Source of the DNA: Lactobacillus sp. LL6
Lineage (GTDB): Bacteria; Bacillota; Bacilli; Lactobacillales; Lactobacillaceae
Length of the DNA stretch: 64,000 bases
Assembly: GCF_007570935.1 (NCBI RefSeq)
Contig: NZ_VLLR01000001.1
Span: 1,674,001 to 1,738,000 of the forward strand
Direction of reading: 5' to 3'
The notes under the pieces: generated by a model
Database searches by the model: none
Seen by the model: the letters and a program-made list of their open reading frames with translations, nothing else
Told to the model about the DNA's origin: nothing
Program-made: the position numbers and the translations under genes
Part shown: one piece after another, positions 9,076 to 24,732 of the stretch
Layout of the letters: each line of letters opens with the position of its first letter
How positions within the stretch are numbered: position 1 is the first letter of the stretch

Positions 9076-10425
9076 TTAATTTTTATGCTTTTCTACTAAG
9101 CCATAGCATCCCCAAAGAAGTACTACAAAGATTATGGAAATAATTAAAGGCAATCTAGTTGATTCAATAAAGAATAAAATCACTAAAATTACAAAGTAAA
9201 AAATAAGTGTCAACCAACTAGTAATTGGATAACCTGGCATTCTAAAACTACCAAGATTATTTTTATTTGCTTGACGATATTTAATATGAGCCCACATAAT
9301 AATCATCCATACAATAATAAAACAAATAGTTGATACTGTAGAAACAACATCAAAAATTTTGGCAGGCATTAAATAGTTCAAGATAACAATTACAAATAGA
9401 ATTAATGATGAAACAGTTAAGGCATTATTAGGAACTGCCTTATTACTTAATTCTCCAAGTTTTTTGGGAGCATTGCCTCCTCGAGCCAGTGCATAAAGAG
9501 AGCGACTCGTAGAAAATATTGCACTGTTAGTTGCAGACATTGCCGCTGTTAATACCACAAAATTTAAAATACCAGCAGCTCCAACAATCCCAATTGCACC
9601 AAACACTTGCACAAATGGACTAGAAGTTGTTTGAATTTTATTCCAAGGATAAACAGCCATAATAGCAAGCATTGATCCAATATAAAATAGCCCAATTCTA
9701 ACTGGTAAAGTGTTAATAGCTTTAGGAATATCCTTATCAGGGTCAGATGTTTCACCTGCTGTAAGTCCTACAATTTCAACTCCAACAAAAGCAAAAACAA
9801 CCATTTGGAAAGACATCATAAAACCCCAGCCACCAGTTGGGAAAAAGCCACCATGATTAAATAAATTACTTAAAGATACCGGTCTTCCTGCTACGTTGGT
9901 ATGAAGCAAAAGCAAAACTGCCCCAGTCAAAATTAAAGCAATGATTGCAATAACTTTAATCATAGAAAACCAACTTTCAAGTTCTCCAAAAAGCCCAACA
10001 TCTACCATATTAATTAGCATTAATAAAACTACAATAACTAGTGGCCCCACCCATTGAGGAAGCCATGGGAACCAATAACGTAAATATATTCCTGTTGCAG
10101 TTAAATCAGCCATCGCTAAAGTTAGCCAACAAGCCCAATAAATCCAACCTGCAACAAATTCAACTCTATCTCCCAAATACTCTTTAACCGCATCTAAAAA
10201 GGAATGTTTTTCTGTATCTGCTAAAATCAGTTCCCCAAGAGCTCTCATCATGAAAAAAGTAATAATCCCAACAATAAGATATGACAAGATAATTGAAGGG
10301 CCAGCGCTACGAATAGCAGAACCGGAACCTAAGAATAATCCTGTACCAATCGCGCCCCCTATTGCGATCATCGTGACGTGACGACTTTTAAGTCCACGAT
10401 TCAATTTCGTTTTTTTCTCATTCAA
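9076..10425 (-). CDS. AAT-family amino acid permease
   Basis: A 449-residue permease. The N-terminus LKSRHVTMIAIGGAIGTGLFLGSG and the segment FMMRALGELILADTEKHSFLDA mark the AAT family (GABA, proline, lysine and aromatic permeases). About 12 membrane helices are visible. No terminator separates it from the next permease gene, but 120 bases and a possible TATAAT box lie between them. Its own promoter is strong and its leader carries a hairpin ending in T residues, so expression may be set by attenuation (inference). Confidence 0.9.
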   Translation of the reverse strand: MNEKKTKLNRGLKSRHVTMIAIGGAIGTGLFLGSGSAIRSAGPSIILSYLIVGIITFFMMRALGELILADTEKHSFLDAVKEYLGDRVEFVAGWIYWACWLTLAMADLTATGIYLRYWFPWLPQWVGPLVIVVLLMLINMVDVGLFGELESWFSMIKVIAIIALILTGAVLLLLHTNVAGRPVSLSNLFNHGGFFPTGGWGFMMSFQMVVFAFVGVEIVGLTAGETSDPDKDIPKAINTLPVRIGLFYIGSMLAIMAVYPWNKIQTTSSPFVQVFGAIGIVGAAGILNFVVLTAAMSATNSAIFSTSRSLYALARGGNAPKKLGELSNKAVPNNALTVSSLILFVIVILNYLMPAKIFDVVSTVSTICFIIVWMIIMWAHIKYRQANKNNLGSFRMPGYPITSWLTLIFYFVILVILFFIESTRLPLIISIIFVVLLWGCYGLVEKHKN

Positions 10426-16797: not shown

Positions 16798-17124
16798 TTA
16801 TCTCACTCTTTCACGAACATGTCTTACTGTGAAGTAAACGATAACTACAGCTTCAATTGCTAAAAGTATCTTATTTTCTACATCAAGCTTACCTAAGCAA
16901 CCAGCTACTACTTCAACAAAAGTTAATAACCACACAGTCGTTTCCAATGTTGCGCCAACTTTTTCGTTTGTATAAGACATGATAGTTAATACCAAAGTTA
17001 TTAGAACAACTACACCAATGATAATGTTAACTGGATTAGTATAAACGTTTTCTGTTTTTACAGTATTAATTAATGCCAATAATAATATTAATATAAATCC
17101 TGCCCATCTATCTTTGATCTTCAT
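16798..17124 (-). CDS. Small membrane protein in the immunity run
   Basis: A 108-residue protein with three or four membrane helices (FILILLLALINTV; VNIIIGVVVLITLVLTIMSY; TTVWLLTFVEVVAGCL; ILLAIEAVVIVYFTV) and a basic C-terminus. Membrane proteins of this size commonly give immunity to class IIb bacteriocins, as with LafI of lactacin F. The stop lies three bases before the next gene's start. Confidence 0.65.
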   Translation of the reverse strand: MKIKDRWAGFILILLLALINTVKTENVYTNPVNIIIGVVVLITLVLTIMSYTNEKVGATLETTVWLLTFVEVVAGCLGKLDVENKILLAIEAVVIVYFTVRHVRERVR

Positions 17125-17126
17125 TT

Positions 17127-17231
17127 TTAGCTCTTCTTTCTTCTTTTAATTAATATCTTCATACCAATCTTAGCTAAATCATAAATACCAAGGCCAATCG
17201 CGATACAAAACGCGCTAATCCAGAATTGCAT
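17127..17231 (-). CDS. 34-residue membrane peptide in the immunity run
   Basis: A short frame: MQFWISAFCIAIGLGIYDL followed by AKIGMKILIKRRKKS. One hydrophobic helix with a strongly basic tail. It starts one base after the previous stop and ends two bases before the next start, which supports translation as part of the operon. It has no double-glycine leader, so it is not a class II bacteriocin precursor. The role is unknown; immunity or membrane signalling is possible. Confidence 0.6.
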   Translation of the reverse strand: MQFWISAFCIAIGLGIYDLAKIGMKILIKRRKKS

Positions 17232-17232
17232 G

Positions 17233-17439
17233 TTATTTTGCTCTTTCTATTCCAAAGCCTTTTTTGCCTTTTACTCGTCTTATACTCCACCATGCCACTT
17301 CTATAATTAAGGAAATCATCCCTAAAAGTACAATCGTTGCTTTAAGATTGTAACCCCAAGTTGTAGTTGGTTGATACAAATTACTAAGTAAAAACATAAC
17401 TTCTAATACTTCTAATAAAACTAAAATAACTTTTCTCAT
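17233..17439 (-). CDS. 68-residue membrane protein in the immunity run
   Basis: Two membrane helices (VILVLLEVLEVMFLLSNLY and IVLLGMISLIIEVAWWSI) and a basic tail (RRVKGKKGFGIERAK). AGGGAG precedes the ATG. It is the first of four coupled genes, and its stop is one base from the next start. The operon start is 49 bases from the end of the CPBP gene, so it may be co-transcribed with it. No family recognised. Confidence 0.6.
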   Translation of the reverse strand: MRKVILVLLEVLEVMFLLSNLYQPTTTWGYNLKATIVLLGMISLIIEVAWWSIRRVKGKKGFGIERAK

Positions 17440-17488: not shown

Positions 17489-18334
17489 TTATTCCTGCGT
17501 ATTTACGTCAAATTCTGTTGATTTGGTGTCATATTCGGTATTTCCAAATTGTTGATTATATTTTTTGTTGTAAAAGTAAACACAGAGTAAACTAAAAGCC
17601 ATTTCAGTTAATGCTAATGGAAATATCAATCTTATATTTGTATTTCCTAAATTGTTAGTAATTATTTGGGGACTTGCATCTTGCCAAATATGTAAAAAAA
17701 CTCCTATGCTTATTCCATTGGTTATAAGCCGTCCATAACTGAATAACATTCCATATCCAAATGCAAATAATATTTGTCCAATAGTAGAAATCATTGATTG
17801 ATGAATGGCATTTACTAAGTGCATCAAACTGAATAAGATTGACGTAATAATGGTAGTCCAAATAAATTTGTATTTACTTTTAGCAAAATACTCTAGACAA
17901 ATATTAAACAAAAGTCCACGGAATAAAAATTCTTCAATAACTCCAGCACTAATTGCAGTTAACCAAATAGCACTAGTTTTATCAAATGAGAATTTAAAAG
18001 TTGCAATCTTATTTGATAACTCTGACAGTATTGGCATTACTAACCAAAACAAGTAAAAAAATACTGTCAAAATCCATAACCATCCCTGTTTTACTTTATG
18101 TTTTACAGTCTTTGTAGTTTTACAGAAATGGTAAGTAACTCCTCCCATTAGAATTATATAAATTGCATATAAAACCCGCTTTGTCATTGATGAATGAAAG
18201 AATTTAAATATAAATGGTCCAAATAAATATATGAGATTTAATATGACAAAAGCAATTAATAATCGCCTAATATCTTTTTTACGTTCATAATCGTTTATTA
18301 AATCTACATATTCTGTCAAAGCCAGATTATTCAT
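17489..18334 (-). CDS. CPBP-family intramembrane protease (Abi/PlnI-type)
   Basis: A 281-residue membrane protein with about eight helices. The CPBP signature is present: EEFLFRGLLFN (EExxxR), then FSLMHLVNAIHQ (FxxxH) and a third conserved HIWQD near the end. CPBP proteins next to bacteriocin genes often give self-immunity in lactic acid bacteria, as with PlnI. It lies between the two bacteriocin precursors and the four small genes. AAAGGGAG precedes the ATG, and a terminator separates it from the precursors, so it may rely on read-through or a promoter of its own. Confidence 0.88.
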   Translation of the reverse strand: MNNLALTEYVDLINDYERKKDIRRLLIAFVILNLIYLFGPFIFKFFHSSMTKRVLYAIYIILMGGVTYHFCKTTKTVKHKVKQGWLWILTVFFYLFWLVMPILSELSNKIATFKFSFDKTSAIWLTAISAGVIEEFLFRGLLFNICLEYFAKSKYKFIWTTIITSILFSLMHLVNAIHQSMISTIGQILFAFGYGMLFSYGRLITNGISIGVFLHIWQDASPQIITNNLGNTNIRLIFPLALTEMAFSLLCVYFYNKKYNQQFGNTEYDTKSTEFDVNTQE

Positions 18335-18372
18335 GAAATCGCTCCCTTTAATTTTTGGATATATTTCAATTT

Positions 18373-18408
18373 TAAAAAAGGAGGAGCAACTATACTCCTC
18401 CTCTTTTA
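18373..18408 (-). terminator. Terminator after the bacteriocin precursors
   Basis: On the minus strand GAGGAGGAG, a short loop, CTCCTCC then six T residues. Confidence 0.8.
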
Positions 18409-18464
18409 AATTAGATTTTAGCTTTTTAGTCTAGAGAAGCAGTTCCTTCCTAGATATTGAATTT

Positions 18465-18650
18465 TTATCTAATAATTTCATAAGTTTTCCAAAGTGCTTT
18501 ACCAATATTATACAAATTTAAACCAGCACGCAAATTATGAGCAGTACCATAACCATTACGGTAGTAACCAGAATGTCTTTTTCCACCAATAATCTTTTCC
18601 AAATCAGTTGTTTGGATTTGTTCAAATTTCTTTGTTTTTTCTTCCATCAT
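18465..18650 (-). CDS. Class II bacteriocin precursor, second peptide
   Basis: A 61-residue precursor (60 if the second of two adjacent ATGs is used) with GAGGAAAAAA as ribosome site. The leader FEQIQTTDLEKIIGG is a canonical double-glycine leader. The mature part has 38 residues, begins KRHSGYYRNGYGTAHNL and ends YNIGKALWKTYEIIR; it is cationic, aromatic, and has a GxxxA spacing (GYGTA). It starts 22 bases after the first precursor gene, so both are made together. A longer upstream extension in the same frame overlaps the first precursor and is not the gene. I do not recognise the peptide as a named bacteriocin. Confidence 0.88.
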   Translation of the reverse strand: MMEEKTKKFEQIQTTDLEKIIGGKRHSGYYRNGYGTAHNLRAGLNLYNIGKALWKTYEIIR

Positions 18651-18672
18651 TTTTTTCCTCTCAATAATATCA

Positions 18673-18804
18673 CTAATGTGATAAACCGTTCCAAAAACCA
18701 TTGACAAATTCAGTAGTTTTCCACCACCAATTTTTCTTAGTTCTTCTCTTTCCACCAACAACTTCAACCAAGTCAGCAGAACTCAACTTTTGAAACTTTT
18801 CCAT
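18673..18804 (-). CDS. Class II bacteriocin precursor, first peptide
   Basis: A 43-residue precursor. The leader MEKFQKLSSADLVEVVGG (18 residues) is a textbook double-glycine leader. The mature peptide has 25 residues, starts KRRTKKNWWWK and ends FVNGFWNGLSH, is strongly cationic with four Trp, and contains GFWNG, the GxxxG motif used for helix pairing in two-peptide bacteriocins. AGGAG precedes the ATG. Operator repeats matching those of the regulatory genes lie about 100 bases upstream. With the 38-residue partner it probably forms a class IIb bacteriocin. Confidence 0.88.
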   Translation of the reverse strand: MEKFQKLSSADLVEVVGGKRRTKKNWWWKTTEFVNGFWNGLSH

Positions 18805-18902: not shown

Positions 18903-18971
18903 TCAAAAGTTGTCAAATAAACGAATATTCTGCAATCATTCAAAATATGATAAAAAATCAACCAAATTTGA
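18903..18971 (-). promoter_or_regulatory. Operator repeats of the bacteriocin precursor promoter
   Basis: On the minus strand CAGAATATTC (18932-18923) and CAACTTTTGA (18912-18903) are 20 bp apart, ending about 35-40 bases before a weak -10-like TATGTA (18868-18863). Just upstream, plus-strand CAAAATATGA (18941) and CCAAATTTGA (18962) are 21 bp apart. The same motifs occur at 21871-21934. They are the likely binding sites of the LytTR regulator encoded at 23598. Confidence 0.6.
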
Positions 18972-18983
18972 TTTTTTCTAACT

Positions 18984-19628
18984 TTAATTTTCTTTACCTA
19001 AAAATGTATCTTTAATAAAGTTAAAATAACTTTCCCTATTAACAATAATTGCTACACTTCCTTGCATCCCATATCTAAGTTCATTACGTTCTCTTTTAGA
19101 TGGATAAATTAAGCAACTTACTTTATAAGCTTCTTTTCCTTTAATTTGATCAGGATACACTCCAATTGAATTTATTTTTCCATTAATCAAAGTAGCAACA
19201 TTTTTCTTATTTTTAATTTCAAATTTTACCTTTTGATTTTTATCTAATTTTTTAACTTCATCAACTCCTACATAAGATACAACTTCTAGACTGCTTTCTT
19301 CTTTTATATTTGGAACTAAAATTACATTATTCGCTTTATCAACATGAACTACTTTATCTTGAGCCAATTTTTTACTAGTTCCATTAACTAATTGTACTTT
19401 TTGATTTTGATAAACATATTTTCCCTCTACATAGTTCTTATTATTTTTAATTATCATTGTATTTTTAGGAACAATAATTCCACCTATGTGAATCGAATCT
19501 TCTTTTACCATAAAAATTGAACTTATAAAAACTAGTAGTATTAATATAAAGGCTGGAAGAATTACTATCCTAGAGAGTGCTTTTGATTTATATGAATAAA
19601 ATTTACTACTTTCAAAATCATCATTCAT
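18984..19628 (-). CDS. Bacteriocin export accessory protein (HlyD-like, short)
   Basis: 214 residues with a single N-terminal membrane helix (ILPAFILILLVFISSIFMV) and an extracellular beta-rich domain. Near the C-terminus YGMQGSVAIIVNRESYFNFI is the typical end of bacteriocin secretion accessory proteins. The usual proteins have over 400 residues and a long coiled-coil hairpin; this one lacks it and is close to the minimal membrane-fusion fold. It starts 14 bases after the exporter stop and should work with that exporter. Confidence 0.82.
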   Translation of the reverse strand: MNDDFESSKFYSYKSKALSRIVILPAFILILLVFISSIFMVKEDSIHIGGIIVPKNTMIIKNNKNYVEGKYVYQNQKVQLVNGTSKKLAQDKVVHVDKANNVILVPNIKEESSLEVVSYVGVDEVKKLDKNQKVKFEIKNKKNVATLINGKINSIGVYPDQIKGKEAYKVSCLIYPSKRERNELRYGMQGSVAIIVNRESYFNFIKDTFLGKEN

Positions 19629-19642
19629 CGTTTATCTCCTCC

Positions 19643-21802
19643 CTAGTTATTCACTAAATCATAATAATATCCATGCTTAACCAATAAATCTTCATGGTTG
19701 CCTTCTTCCACAATCTTTCCGTGATTTAAGACAACAATATCATCAGATTTTTTAGCAATAGATAATCTATGAGCAATAAAAATAATAGTCTTATTTTTTA
19801 AACTAATTAGATTATCAACAATCTTCTTTTCAGTTATTGTATCTAAGCCACTTGTTGCTTCATCAAAGATAAATACACTAGCTTGAGAAAGAAGCGCTCT
19901 AGCAATAGTAAGGCGTTGTTTTTGACCACCTGATAAAATTGTCGCATTTTCATCCATTTGTGTATCAAACTTTAATGGTAAATTTTCAATATCTTGATAT
20001 ATTTCTGCAATTTTACATGCTTTCTTAATTTCTTCCTCTGTTACATTTTTTCTACTACCTAACAACAAACTTTCTCTAATAGTTCCAGAAAATACATATG
20101 GAGTTTGAGGGACATAATTTATATAGGAGCGTAGAACATGTTTATCAATACTTGTAGTTATATTTCCATTTATAGTTATCTTCCCCCTAGTAGGTGCAAA
20201 AAAGTTAACTAGTAATTTTACAAGAGTAGATTTTCCTGAACCACTCATCCCCACAATGGTTAATTTTTCTCCTTTTTTAATTTCTAAATTTATATTTTTT
20301 AGTACATCTTGTCCATAACCGTATTTGTAATCTACATTTTCAAATTTAATATTTCCATTTAATTTAGAAATACTATTAATATCTGCTTTATTTTTAAATT
20401 CACTTTCAACTAAATAAACTTCATTCAATCTATTTTGAGCTACATTAGCTGATTGAAGTGTTGGTTGGAGATTAATAATATTTTGTAAGGGATCAATAAA
20501 GTATGAAAGTAAAGCATTAAAAGTCATCAATTCACCAATTGTCATTTGATTATGCATTACTATTCCAGCCCCAATCCAAAGAATAAGAATATTCAATGAC
20601 ATACGAATAAAAGTTTTTAAAGATGCTTGAAAAACTTCAGTTTTACTATAATTAAATGATTTTTTTAGATAATCAACAAATTGACTGTCTATTTTTTTAT
20701 ATCTTACTTTTTCACTATTTAAAGCTTTAATAGTTTCAATTCCTTGAATATCTTCAATTATTGAAGAACTTACTACTGAATTGCTTTCCATTTGTTCATT
20801 ATTTAAATGATCAAATTTTTTAGTAAAACCTAAAATTACAACTGCATACAATGGCAAAGAAGCAATTGTTATCAAAAATAAAGTTGTATTTTGAATAGCT
20901 AGCGTTATTCCCATCAAAATTACAATAGATAAATCTAAAAACAGAGATATTACCGTACTTGCTAATGCCTCTATAATTCTACTTGCATCTGAAAATCGAC
21001 AAGTAATTTCACCAGTTTTTCTTGTAGCAAAAAATTCCATTGGTAATTCAAAAATATGCCTAATATAACTTAAATTTAAATCAATTGATAATCTTTGACC
21101 TAATACATTAAGTAAGAGTTGTTGCCCATAAGAAAATATTGAATTAAATACATATGCAATAAGCAAACCTATCGCAAGAATCGATAATGTATTATACGTT
21201 CCATTAGGGATATAATTATCAATTATTCCCTGTAAAAAGTATGAGTTACAGATACTTATTATTGTCATCAATAACGAAGCTAAAATAATATCTCTAACCA
21301 ACTTTCCTTGTTTGAACATATATGGAAATAATGATAAAAGATTATTTCTCTTCTCTTTAATTGGTTCAAATTTAGAATTTGGTTGTATTAATAAAGTTAC
21401 TCCAGTCCATTCTTGAGCAAACTTCTTTTTAGATATTCTTTTAACTCCAACATCTGGATCAGGATCCGCAATAATAATTGAATTTTTATTACTCTTTAAT
21501 ACAACATAATAGTGCAGTAATTCTCCATTCTTTAAAACGTGAGCAATAAATGGATAATTAATATCTTCCATTTCAAATATTGACATATCAGCTTGAACTG
21601 CTTGAACATCTAAGTTAAACTTTTCAGCAGTTTTTACTAACCCTAATGCAGTGGTCCCTTCCATGTTAGTTTTTGCAATATGTCTTAAATGTGCAATTGA
21701 TACTCTAGAATGATAATTTTTTAGAATCATGGCAAGACAAGCAACTCCGCAATCTGTTTCATCAACTTGTGGTATGTAAATTGACTTATATTTAAGTAAC
21801 AT
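19643..21802 (-). CDS. Bacteriocin ABC exporter with C39 leader peptidase
   Basis: A 719-residue exporter with three parts: an N-terminal C39 protease (Cys18 in QVDETDCGVACLAMIL, His in HYYVVLKSN, Asp in IIADPD), a six-helix membrane domain, and an ATPase with Walker A GMSGSGKSTLVK, signature LSGGQKQR and Walker B VFIFDEATSGLD. It cuts double-glycine leaders and exports the mature peptides, here the two bacteriocin peptides and the inducing peptide. The start at 21802 (MLLKYKSIYIPQ) has AGGGAG upstream and gives the standard length; a longer reading to 21895 has no ribosome site. Divergent from the regulatory genes. Confidence 0.95.
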   Translation of the reverse strand: MLLKYKSIYIPQVDETDCGVACLAMILKNYHSRVSIAHLRHIAKTNMEGTTALGLVKTAEKFNLDVQAVQADMSIFEMEDINYPFIAHVLKNGELLHYYVVLKSNKNSIIIADPDPDVGVKRISKKKFAQEWTGVTLLIQPNSKFEPIKEKRNNLLSLFPYMFKQGKLVRDIILASLLMTIISICNSYFLQGIIDNYIPNGTYNTLSILAIGLLIAYVFNSIFSYGQQLLLNVLGQRLSIDLNLSYIRHIFELPMEFFATRKTGEITCRFSDASRIIEALASTVISLFLDLSIVILMGITLAIQNTTLFLITIASLPLYAVVILGFTKKFDHLNNEQMESNSVVSSSIIEDIQGIETIKALNSEKVRYKKIDSQFVDYLKKSFNYSKTEVFQASLKTFIRMSLNILILWIGAGIVMHNQMTIGELMTFNALLSYFIDPLQNIINLQPTLQSANVAQNRLNEVYLVESEFKNKADINSISKLNGNIKFENVDYKYGYGQDVLKNINLEIKKGEKLTIVGMSGSGKSTLVKLLVNFFAPTRGKITINGNITTSIDKHVLRSYINYVPQTPYVFSGTIRESLLLGSRKNVTEEEIKKACKIAEIYQDIENLPLKFDTQMDENATILSGGQKQRLTIARALLSQASVFIFDEATSGLDTITEKKIVDNLISLKNKTIIFIAHRLSIAKKSDDIVVLNHGKIVEEGNHEDLLVKHGYYYDLVNN

Positions 21803-21870: not shown

Positions 21871-21934
21871 TCATATTTTGTAATTTAGCAATCATATTTT
21901 GCAGAATATGACGCTATTTAGACAGAATTTGAGG
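21871..21934. promoter_or_regulatory. Divergent pairs of 21-bp-spaced repeats
   Basis: TCATATTTTG occurs at 21871 and 21892 (CAAAATATGA on the minus strand), and CAGAATATGA at 21902 and CAGAATTTGA at 21923 on the plus strand. Each pair is spaced 21 bp start to start, two helical turns, as in LytTR-type operators of lactic acid bacteria. The plus pair faces the inducing peptide operon and the minus pair faces the exporter operon. Confidence 0.7.
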
Positions 21935-21999: not shown

Positions 22000-22131
22000 A
22001 TGAAAAAATTAAATGAGAAAGAATTAAGTAAAATCACTGGTGGATTTGGGATGTTTTTTGATCCTACGGTTAGTTTTTATATGAAACGCAAAAAAAGGAA
22101 ATGTATTGTCATCACTTTTAAGCCTGTTTAA
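22000..22131 (+). CDS. Inducing peptide precursor (double-glycine pheromone)
   Basis: A 43-residue precursor with AAGAGGT before the ATG. The leader MKKLNEKELSKITGG is a double-glycine leader. The predicted mature peptide has 28 residues and begins FGMFFDPTVSFYMKRKKRK; it has an aromatic N-terminal half, a basic middle and the tail CIVITFKPV with one Cys. The gene ends nine bases before a histidine kinase gene of the peptide-sensing HPK10 type and is followed by its regulator. Its position makes it the autoinducer rather than a bacteriocin, though it could have both roles. Confidence 0.85.
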   Translation: MKKLNEKELSKITGGFGMFFDPTVSFYMKRKKRKCIVITFKPV

Positions 22132-22140
22132 GAAATAATT

Positions 22141-23595
22141 ATGAATTTTATAAAAGTAATAAATATCCTATTGAGTATCCCAGATTTAATTATCCCAATC
22201 ATTATAGATTTTGCTATAGTTATTAAACTTATTCATATACCACTAAGTAAGAATAATAAATATTTTATTTCACTATTCAGCTTAATTATATTCATAGCAA
22301 GTATCTGTTTATCAGAATTAGGTGCTGATATTGGCATAACTTTACTCCAAGTAATAGTATTATTTCTTTACTTTGCAATACTTAAAAAAGTTAATATTAA
22401 ATTAGTTTTTGGTTCTATATTAACTTTTACAGTTTTTGATACTGCATTATATCTAATATGTGGAATTTTAATGGATATAATTCCTTATGGAAATCGATAT
22501 TTTGATAGCATCATTAGCATTACTGTAGAAATAGTTGGCTATTTAATAATTAGAAGATATTTCTCACAATTACATAAACTACTCACCGACAAAAATAGCA
22601 ATATTTTTATCGGTATTTTGTTATACCTTTATATAATTGGAATTGGTGTTGAATTTTTTATTTCTGGTGATAATAAAACCACAGAAGTAGTAACAATTTC
22701 TCTGGGATTATTATTACTACAGTCTATCTTCGCCTTTGTTCTTTACTACGCAATGATAAAAACTGAAAATAATCTCTTGTCCAAAAAAGAACAGGAAAAT
22801 CAAAAACTTCAAAACCAGTTGCTAAAAGCTAAAAATAATGAACTCAGTCAAGAAAAGCAACGACAAAAATTACAATATGAATTACTTAAAAACGAAAAAG
22901 ATAAGCTAACTGAGGAACATAATCAGCTAAAAGAATATGCAGAATACCTAGATAAGAATGAAGATGATTTGCGCAAATTTAAACATGATTATCAAAATAT
23001 GATGAATAGTTTAATTATCAGTGCCGAAAACGGGAAAACAGATGAAGTAGTATCTAAATTAAAGGAATACACTAATAGTCACATTAATTCCAAAGCTTTA
23101 CGTAAGTATAAGGATCTTAATCATGTCCACGTTGATTTTTTAAAAAGTATCGCAATTGCTAAACTAGCCAAACTTTATAATGCGGATATAAACTATTCTT
23201 TTGGCTGTAATAAAGAAATTAATCGAATTCCTAAAACTATAGATTATCTAGATATTACAAGAATTATTGGAATTGCTTTTGATAATGCTTATGAAGAAAG
23301 TATGGCTTTAAGAAAAGAAACTGGTAATTTAGATTCTGCACAAATTTTAGCTACATATTATCAAGAAGATGGAGATTTTGAATTTGAAATTAGAAATAAA
23401 ATTAGACCTAAAAAAATCAATACTAAGCTAATCAGCCGAAAAAATTACACAACTAAAGAACACCATATGGGAATCGGATTAGCTAATGTTACAGAAATTA
23501 CTAAAAAATACGAATCAACAGTATTAGTCAATTATGGGATAGATGATGACTGGTTCACATTTAGTTTAATAGTGTTGCCAGATGAGGAGGAATAA
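22141..23595 (+). CDS. Peptide-sensing histidine kinase (HPK10/AgrC type)
   Basis: A 484-residue kinase. Residues 1-205 hold six or seven membrane helices, then comes a long coiled coil (210-275). The phosphorylated histidine is His282 in FKHDYQN, the HPK10 motif. The ATP-binding part includes IAFDNAYEE (N box) and HMGIGLANV (G box). It senses the exported inducing peptide and phosphorylates the downstream regulator. The ribosome site is weak, and translation is probably coupled to the peptide gene nine bases upstream. Confidence 0.92.
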   Translation: MNFIKVINILLSIPDLIIPIIIDFAIVIKLIHIPLSKNNKYFISLFSLIIFIASICLSELGADIGITLLQVIVLFLYFAILKKVNIKLVFGSILTFTVFDTALYLICGILMDIIPYGNRYFDSIISITVEIVGYLIIRRYFSQLHKLLTDKNSNIFIGILLYLYIIGIGVEFFISGDNKTTEVVTISLGLLLLQSIFAFVLYYAMIKTENNLLSKKEQENQKLQNQLLKAKNNELSQEKQRQKLQYELLKNEKDKLTEEHNQLKEYAEYLDKNEDDLRKFKHDYQNMMNSLIISAENGKTDEVVSKLKEYTNSHINSKALRKYKDLNHVHVDFLKSIAIAKLAKLYNADINYSFGCNKEINRIPKTIDYLDITRIIGIAFDNAYEESMALRKETGNLDSAQILATYYQEDGDFEFEIRNKIRPKKINTKLISRKNYTTKEHHMGIGLANVTEITKKYESTVLVNYGIDDDWFTFSLIVLPDEEE

Positions 23596-23597
23596 TT

Positions 23598-24407
23598 ATG
23601 GAATATCCAGTATTTATTTGTGACGATGATCAAGATCAAATTAACGTAACTATTAAGATTTTAGGTAGAGCAGAAATGATTCTCTCTGATGAAGAAAAAG
23701 TTAGATTTAATATTAACACTGCAACTACTTATCAAGATGCTGTTAACTATATCAAAGAACATCAAATTGAGGGAGGCATCTATTTTCTTGATGTAGAACT
23801 TGGAAAAGATGTTAATGATGAAAATGGGTTTGATATTGCAGATTTAATCAAATCTAGAGATGAAAAAGCTCAAATCATTTTCGTCACTAGTCACCAAGAT
23901 TTATCTATCATTACTTATCAAAGACGTCTTGGTCCGGTTGATTACATTGTCAAAACTGATGATGTAGATGAACTTAAAAAACGAATGGTAAAGACAATTG
24001 AAGTTGCCTTATATCAAATCGAAAAATTTGATTACATTCAATCAATGAACTTCACTTACAAAATAGGTCGAATAATTAAGAATATTAATATTAATAAAGT
24101 TATGTACATTACTACAACCTTAACCCCACATAAGTTATTATTAATTAAGGATCATGGAGAAGCGCAATTTTTAGGCAGTATTAATGAATATGCTGAAAAT
24201 AATCCAAAACTACTTGTAAAACTTAGCCAATCTTGTTTGGCAAATCCTAATAATATCGCTTCAATCGATCTTAAGAACCGCTTAGTAACTTTTAAAAATG
24301 GGGATGTTGAAGAATTTTCACGTCCTACAACAAAGAAGATGAAAGAATTACTAAATAACTTTAACTATAAAGTTGAAGATTTAGGATATTTGAAAAAAGA
24401 AGACTAA
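23598..24407 (+). CDS. LytTR-family response regulator
   Basis: A 269-residue regulator. The receiver domain spans 1-125 with acidic pocket ICDDDQ and phospho-acceptor Asp65 in YFLDVELG. The C-terminal half is a LytTR DNA-binding domain (from about 150: FTYKIGRIIKNININKVMYI ... LSQSCLANPNNIASID). These regulators bind paired 9-10 bp repeats spaced about 21 bp, as found here at 18903-18971 and 21871-21934. The start is two bases after the kinase stop, with GGAGG upstream. A bidirectional terminator closes the operon. Confidence 0.93.
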   Translation: MEYPVFICDDDQDQINVTIKILGRAEMILSDEEKVRFNINTATTYQDAVNYIKEHQIEGGIYFLDVELGKDVNDENGFDIADLIKSRDEKAQIIFVTSHQDLSIITYQRRLGPVDYIVKTDDVDELKKRMVKTIEVALYQIEKFDYIQSMNFTYKIGRIIKNININKVMYITTTLTPHKLLLIKDHGEAQFLGSINEYAENNPKLLVKLSQSCLANPNNIASIDLKNRLVTFKNGDVEEFSRPTTKKMKELLNNFNYKVEDLGYLKKED

Positions 24408-24440
24408 AAAATGGACACCTTCATTTGGTGTCCATTTTTC
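24406..24440. terminator. Bidirectional terminator after the response regulator
   Basis: AAAAATGGACACC and GGTGTCCATTTTT form a 13-bp stem. Confidence 0.9.
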
Positions 24441-24705
24441 ATTTATGTTCTTTATCTAAATCATTAGGAACTTTTGAATTATAAATCAAAGCAGTAATTG
24501 CTTCTGTCACTCCCAAAAAGAATGCCACAATGATATTCGTAACTCCAAATACACCAACCACTAAATTGTTGTGCATTAGCGGAAACGCCACAAAAGTTGC
24601 CAAAATCCCAATTACTGCTACTGTCCAAAACACAATTCCATAAGTGCGAGGATAAGTGCGAAACTTAATGTACTGTTCACGATCTAATTTATATTTTTTG
24701 TCCAT
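24439..24705 (-). CDS. Small membrane protein, unknown
   Basis: An 88-residue protein with two or three membrane helices (IVFWTVAVIGILATFVAFPL; VGVFGVTNIIVAFFLGVTEAITALIY) and charged ends. The start at 24705 is chosen for AGAAGG upstream. Its stop lies next to the terminator of the bacteriocin regulator, but it reads toward that locus and is probably not part of it. No family recognised. Confidence 0.65.
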   Translation of the reverse strand: MDKKYKLDREQYIKFRTYPRTYGIVFWTVAVIGILATFVAFPLMHNNLVVGVFGVTNIIVAFFLGVTEAITALIYNSKVPNDLDKEHK

Positions 24706-24732
24706 TTTTCTGCCTTCTTTCACCTCATTATA

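Follow-up and report, generated by a model that had tools for sequence, protein, structure and literature searches.

A probable new, divergent class IIb two-peptide bacteriocin with a PlnC-style regulon in Lactobacillus sp. LL6

Plantaricin S and muricidin, the latter from L. murinus DSM 20452, are two-peptide bacteriocins by experiment. The synthetic peptides of muricidin are synergistic, being highly active together and weak or inactive alone, and changes to G9xxxG13 of Pls-alpha or S17xxxG21 of Pls-beta lower the activity of plantaricin S, sometimes drastically; the Pls-beta motif aligns with G18xxxG22 of lactococcin G-beta (all from the passages of PMC6382864 used here). Single peptides of the class IIb type are unstructured in water, and Abi-type immunity proteins serve some two-peptide bacteriocins (passages of PMC6957408). 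A further pair, from L. intestinalis DSM 6629, has been in print since 2017 in Table 5 of PMC5471241; in that table "produced in vitro" marks muricidin and acidocin X and not this pair, and the portion of the paper used here also names a helveticin-like protein for the same strain. Regulation is described for the plantaricin C11 (pln) regulon, where every regulated operon is preceded by the targets of PlnC and PlnD, tandem repeats of 9 bp set apart by a 12-bp spacer (passages of PMC2714321).

The locus presented here lies in a window of 64,000 nucleotides, meaning the whole stretch analyzed (contig NZ_VLLR01000001.1, positions 1,674,001 to 1,738,000), and all positions below without another label refer to it. 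A preliminary description of this DNA had pointed to two short double-glycine (GG) precursors of 43 and about 61 codons, 22 bases apart, with leaders ending LVEVVGG and LEKIIGG, and translation bears this out on every count; both genes, here called A and B, are on the minus strand, which that description did not give. Both frames are intact around the intergenic gap (18651-18672), and both ribosome-binding sites are good, with Shine-Dalgarno GAGGAG in the start context of A (GAGGAGAAAAAATG) and GAGAGG in that of B (GAGAGGAAAAAAATG). The B frame stays open upstream and would give 100 aa from TTG 18767, but the ATG at 18650 is preferred as the start because of its ribosome-binding site and the leader. 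The mature peptides are KRRTKKNWWWKTTEFVNGFWNGLSH (A) and KRHSGYYRNGYGTAHNLRAGLNLYNIGKALWKTYEIIR (B), with predicted average masses, unmodified, of 3207.6 and 4469.0 Da; they are cationic, as proposed, at +4.9 and +5.9 at pH 7. Mature A is hydrophilic (GRAVY -1.42), and the maximal hydrophobic moments, computed as a sign of amphiphilic helices, give no support to them, as fractions of 0.47 and 0.30 of the shuffles were equally high. A rule for GG precursors applied to the window returns three genes, namely A, B, and an inducer peptide. When the window was simulated 60 times with a first-order Markov model, such precursors averaged 0.28 per simulation (maximum 2), and none of the 60 contained a same-strand pair within 100 nt. 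The GxxxG-like motifs that had been read as the mark of class IIb are present (GFWNG in A, GYGTA in B), but the motif alone is weak evidence for that class.

Homology of the mature peptides was assessed with mature-only profiles against 49 peptides (22 from Table 5 of PMC5471241, without L. apodemi and duplicates, together with Pls-beta and 26 hand-picked GG peptides) and 14 family members, with 2520 shuffles. When the window pair was left out of the profiles, its A and B peptides were still recovered, at E=7.8e-7 and E=1.5e-6 respectively and each above all 2520 shuffles; this test is not independent, because the full precursors of the window had served to recruit the relatives. The B profile matched muricidin alpha at 5e-4 without the window pair (best shuffle 0.19) and at 0.0029 with it (best shuffle 0.31), and by these scores B appears clearly related to muricidin alpha. 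For the A profile without the window pair the values were 0.011 for muricidin beta and 0.012 for plantaricin S beta (best shuffle 0.031); with the pair included these values became 0.028 and 0.033 and were outranked by two shuffles (0.011 and 0.017), so the apparent relation of mature A to both peptides is weak. Among 177635 PDB sequences the A profile placed plantaricin S beta first (E=0.081), the next match being an unrelated lectin at 0.32, and the B profile had no match up to E=10. Muricidin alpha used as query matched plantaricin S alpha at E=0.0088, and a beta-like peptide from another genus (G278) matched lactococcin G-beta at E=0.0039.

Curated models gave sub-threshold matches only, at E=0.015 for A against NF038034, 0.0062 for B against NF038163, and 0.00057 for B against ComC. 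No match to PF10439 (Bacteriocin_IIc), which we take to cover lactacin F-type peptides, passed the cut-off anywhere in the genome. The lactacin B cluster of L. acidophilus was set aside as a candidate, since comparison by eye places no tryptic peptide from the part of PMC7203471 used here in A or B. A full-text search, with subscription papers and supplements mostly outside its scope, did not find the A, B, or second-pair peptide strings, and it found the L. intestinalis string in PMC5471241 alone.

The preliminary description had connected the pair with no named bacteriocin; this is amended here, as muricidin, plantaricin S, and the L. intestinalis DSM 6629 pair are known relatives, all at some distance. 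Muricidin likewise has adjacent GG precursors (L091), yet compared pair by pair it has very little similarity to the window peptides (0.08 and 0.07), and the link is visible through profiles only; Mur-beta ends in VVSFGKGFLDAF where A ends in TTEFVNGFWNGLSH, and Mur-alpha has GHYTGK where B has GYGTAH. Compared with plantaricin S (PDB 6gnz and 6go0), E14xxxG18 of A lies opposite S17xxxG21 of Pls-beta in the profile alignment, with Glu replacing Ser, and G10xxxA14 of B falls by eye on G9xxxG13 of Pls-alpha, with Ala replacing the second Gly; B is also longer and has a basic C-terminus. The EFVNGFWNG segment of A corresponds to EFIKGFGKG of lactococcin G-beta, whose G18xxxG22 coincides with G18FWNG22 of A. 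The two motif registers of A (E14FVNG18 and G18FWNG22) are one turn apart, and either may be the one that matters. NF038034 is the best NCBIfam match of A, below threshold. B differs from lactococcin G in resembling the plantaricin S/muricidin alpha peptides, and the curated-model search returned no lactococcin G-alpha match for it. The L. intestinalis DSM 6629 pair consists of different peptides (normalized alignment score 0.34 for A and 0.24 for B), but genome G020, whose mature pair is identical to it letter for letter as printed in Table 5 of PMC5471241, has the same cluster genes as the window. The arrangement differs, with the small membrane-protein gene before the CPBP gene and the regulators co-oriented there, whereas in the window the small gene follows the CPBP gene and the regulators are divergent.

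The cluster around A and B is complete (Table 1). The exporter and accessory genes lie upstream of A on the same strand, and the genes for inducer, kinase, and regulator (22000-24407) are divergent from them. All frames are open, and ribosome-binding sites are mostly good, that of the kinase gene being poor. For the exporter, ATG 21802 is preferred, the longest frame running from 21895, within the repeats. The accessory protein also matched PF13437 below cut-off (E=0.004). Beyond the regulator gene, a 10-nt direct repeat, ATAAGTGCGA, occurs twice with a 12-nt period at 24640-24661, inside a 94-aa ORF (24439-24723).

Table 1. Features of the bacteriocin cluster, in window positions
Feature	Position	Strand	Evidence and remarks
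68-aa protein, two hydrophobic stretches (two-helix)	17233..17439	minus	candidate dedicated immunity protein
CPBP/Rce1-like (Abi-type) membrane protein	17489..18334	minus	PF02517 E=1.3e-14, over cut-off; candidate immunity protein
Repeat pair CCGAATATGA-N11-CAGAATTTGA	17508..17538	minus	68 nt before 68-aa gene; 1 mismatch; 19/20
Inverted repeat, terminator-like, B/CPBP interval	18366..18415		scan: plus strand only; minus-side T-run read from sequence
Gene B, GG precursor, 61 aa	18465..18650	minus	leader ...LEKIIGG; mature 38 aa, putative alpha-type peptide
Gene A, GG precursor, 43 aa	18673..18804	minus	leader ...LVEVVGG; mature 25 aa, putative beta-type peptide
Weaker A-oriented repeat pair CAGAATATTC-N10-CAACTTTTGA	18903..18932	minus	98 nt before A; 16/20; spacing 20
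A-promoter repeat pair, minus-strand TCAAATTTGG-N11-TCATATTTTG	18941..18971		points away from A; 3 mismatches
HlyD-like bacteriocin secretion accessory protein	18984..19628	minus	TIGR01000 E=1e-29, 103.8 bits, below cut-off 258.85
Peptide cleavage/export ABC transporter, C39 peptidase domain	19643..21802	minus	TIGR01193 1058.9 bits, over cut-off
Repeat pair CAAAATATGA-N11-CAAAATATGA	21871..21901	minus	68 nt before exporter ATG 21802; 2 mismatches; 20/20
Repeat pair CAGAATATGA-N11-CAGAATTTGA	21902..21932	plus	67 nt before inducer; 0 mismatches; 20/20
Inducer (pheromone) precursor, GG leader, 43 aa	22000..22131	plus	TIGR01847 over cut-off; predicted inducer 28 aa
Histidine protein kinase, GHKL domain	22141..23595	plus	PF14501 over cut-off; AgrC-like, below AgrC model cut-off
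Response regulator, LytTR DNA-binding domain	23598..24407	plus	PF04397 and PF00072 over cut-off

A motif of 10 nt, recurring every 21 nt, stands before the genes for the inducer, the exporter, and the 68-aa protein, and the A promoter has an array as well. In gene orientation, as set by the distances to start codons, the repeat form is CAGAATATGA-N11-CAGAATWTGA. Genome-wide, at up to 3 mismatches, there are 9 matches against 1 for a reversed control, and the best 3 of the 9 are the sites 67-68 nt before start codons of this cluster; scores of 19 or 20 of 20 were reached in 0 of 2000 simulated 300-nt stretches. A scan in the opposite orientation found 5 pairs scoring at least 17/20 at spacing 21, every other spacing between 12 and 39 having 0 to 4. 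Inducer, kinase, and response regulator, together with the repeat and spacer layout, resemble the pln regulon, in which the repeat is TACGTTAAT rather than the CAGAATATGA type and PlnC and PlnD stand in place of a single regulator gene (passages of PMC2714321). Two related loci carry such pairs, before the inducer gene at 17/20 (L046) and 18/20 (L047), and before A at 16/20 (L046) and 17/20 (L047); in a third, L050, the pairs reach only 14-15/20, and none is above chance level.

The A promoter had been described as carrying regulator repeats, and the array is indeed there, but its repeats are the weakest among the cluster sites; the better pair is oriented oppositely, relative to its gene, to the other three, and the score of the pair facing A is reached by 5% of simulated 300-nt stretches. 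This weakness, together with the split exporter genes of two relatives (L053 and L054), would fit a cluster that is silent or decaying in this strain, a possibility that need not conflict with the identity preferred here for the genes. The open frames, the mostly good ribosome-binding sites, and the high-scoring repeats before the inducer, exporter, and 68-aa genes all speak against this, and silence or decay is judged unlikely.

Two proteins are candidates for immunity. The CPBP protein shows the motifs EExxxR (EEFLFR) and FxxxH (FSLMH) on reading of the sequence, and relatives of it stand behind the pair in L046 and L047. The 68-aa protein has modest similarity to a family of small proteins (hhalign E=2.8e-4, probability 41%), scoring 15.7 bits against 13.7 for the best of 1000 shuffles and outscoring the other ORF segments of the window (n=221, one of which is this gene read from an earlier start). 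In L045-L049 the pair is followed by a small two-helix protein, as is B in L051; two hydrophobic peaks were seen in the hydropathy test, which covered L045, L047-L049, and L051. The small two-helix proteins that travel with these pairs are likely immunity proteins. The regulator site, which falls inside the 3' end of the CPBP gene, is a stronger argument for the 68-aa protein than its family similarity. In L046 the small membrane-protein gene at 10043 likewise has a repeat pair in front of it (9949-9980; 19/20, spacing 22), at a distance of 62 nt, and a separately controlled gene of this kind is therefore seen twice. Directly 3' of the 68-aa gene lie two small membrane-type ORFs, 16798-17124 (108 aa) and 17127-17231 (34 aa), which are possibly co-transcribed with it; the 108-aa ORF has no family match over a cut-off, and its membership in the small-protein family is unsupported (E=0.12).

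Single-peptide searches of 75 genomes of the genus at E<=1 gave matches to A in 21 and to B in 11, in many cases limited to one portion of the precursor, frequently its leader. Adjacent A and B pairs were found at 6 loci in 5 of these genomes, the window included. The search of Lactobacillus genomes suggested in the preliminary description has yielded paired relatives in 4 other genomes (G020, G004, G058, and G068), and the named relatives proved divergent from the window pair. The second locus of the window's own genome (L045:9736-10102; C2:296235-296601) holds a divergent pair, accompanied by a separate C39 exporter and accessory gene and lying beside a gene that is presumably prs, and no kinase or regulator relative at E<=1e-3 within its 19.5-kb stretch. 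Profile searches of 397 genomes of the family matched A in 42 at E<=0.01, many through the leader half only, and B in 13 at E<=0.001, some of the matched genomes having also supplied sequences for the profiles. The strongest A-profile matches beyond the genus (G174, G332, and G441) each have neighboring GG peptides; the G332 pair is exactly muricidin, matched at 1.2e-7 by the A profile with leaders. No A or B match at E<=0.01 was found in 72,556 plasmid records. A search of named genomes with B gave a single match, L089, which was discarded because it falls by chance within a longer reading frame of an Ardenticatenaceae bin.

Several of these genomes show further features. The exporter relative at L053:9948-13309 is interrupted by about 1.2 kb of extra sequence, perhaps an insertion. 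The exporter match of L054 is split between two frames or pieces, and the same locus, in G068, has two more B-like or GG peptides (L054:846-971 and 291-449) with kinase and regulator relatives nearby. The window's genome also contains L101 (C2:1593548-1593664, minus strand), a GG-leader peptide whose leader ends LKRVTGG and which has a glycine-rich tail; it matches PF10439 weakly, below cut-off (E=0.002), and by its sequence is a further putative bacteriocin-like gene. In G026, a related cluster is divided between L050 and L051 (contigs C39 and C36 in our numbering), beside relatives of the DUF915 hydrolase and PTS EIIC genes of the window, and the contig with B also carries relatives of two window genes that we take for dltB and dltD. 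This arrangement points to one chromosomal site shared with the window, at which the peptides have diverged strongly and A and B belong to separate transcription units.

The separate contigs of A and B in G026, where B may have its own repeat pair (16/20) 92 nt upstream, are among the observations that would fit two one-peptide bacteriocins sharing an operon and acting independently, as are the non-overlapping A and B genes of the window, each with a ribosome-binding site, and a weak, sub-threshold bactofencin match of B (E=0.0062) over residues 5-34, mostly leader. Against this stand the need of muricidin for both its peptides and the two-peptide nature of plantaricin S (passages of PMC6382864), and also the recurrence of adjacent pairs and their correlated divergence. 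Distances between A peptides correlate with those between B peptides in Mantel tests, at r=0.82 for 9 pairs (P 5e-5), 0.86 for 7 pairs (P about 0.001), and 0.93 for the 6 linked pairs (P 0.008), a correlation that would also arise from shared descent of linked genes. Independent action of the two peptides is on balance a distinctly improbable reading. Least probable is that A, B, or both are signaling peptides with no antimicrobial role, for although GG leaders are common to pheromones and bacteriocins and the B leader comes just under the cut-off of ComC, a separate inducer candidate directly precedes the kinase here and is likewise placed in L046 and L047, mature A and B do not group with inducer peptides in the profile test, and L045, L048, and L049 retain A, B, the small membrane protein, the exporter, and the accessory gene, their 19.5-kb stretches showing neither kinase nor regulator relatives at E<=1e-3.

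The reading preferred in the preliminary description, a two-peptide class IIb bacteriocin, gains support from the adjacent GG precursors, the C39 exporter and accessory protein, the inducer, kinase, and LytTR regulator, the immunity candidates, the recurrent pairs, and the similarity to muricidin and plantaricin S. It is likely that A (beta type) and B (alpha type) together make up a single class IIb bacteriocin, most plausibly of the plantaricin S/muricidin group, and the window pair is probably a new and divergent member of the class with a PlnC-style regulon. What the DNA itself displays is the genes with their leaders and domains, the repeats, the way in which pairs recur, and the family similarity; from these we infer a course of regulation, secretion, pairing, killing, and immunity. 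The secreted inducer would activate the kinase and the LytTR regulator, which would bind the paired repeats and turn on the operon of inducer, kinase, and regulator together with the exporter, the genes of the two peptides, and, from its own promoter, the 68-aa gene. The C39 domain of the exporter would cleave the leaders of A and B after GG, and the mature peptides would be exported, form helices in the target membrane, and pair through their GxxxG-like motifs (GFWNG of A and GYGTA of B). Together they may act on a receptor and permeabilize closely related Gram-positive bacteria, with the 68-aa protein, the CPBP protein, or both shielding the producer.

A more specific proposal, offered tentatively and rather doubtful at present, is that the window pair belongs with its relatives to a Lactobacillus lineage of its own that bridges two groups, in which a beta peptide with the lactococcin G-beta EFxxGFxxG motif is joined to a plantaricin S/muricidin-alpha-type partner, with two loci in one genome, one of them under quorum-sensing control and the other without a regulator gene found nearby, and a separately promoted, co-regulated small immunity protein. 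If such a bridging lineage is real, it could be used to test which of the two, beta motif or alpha partner, determines the choice of receptor, and whether the two resident pairs can exchange peptides. The plan of the cluster is ordinary, and its usefulness as a model would come from the second pair in the genome and from the candidate immunity gene under separate control. With masses and a candidate inducer predicted, an apparently complete two-peptide system joins a group with few characterized members, and a single genome carrying two divergent pairs of the same group may serve as a natural test bed for peptide exchange and the specificity of immunity.
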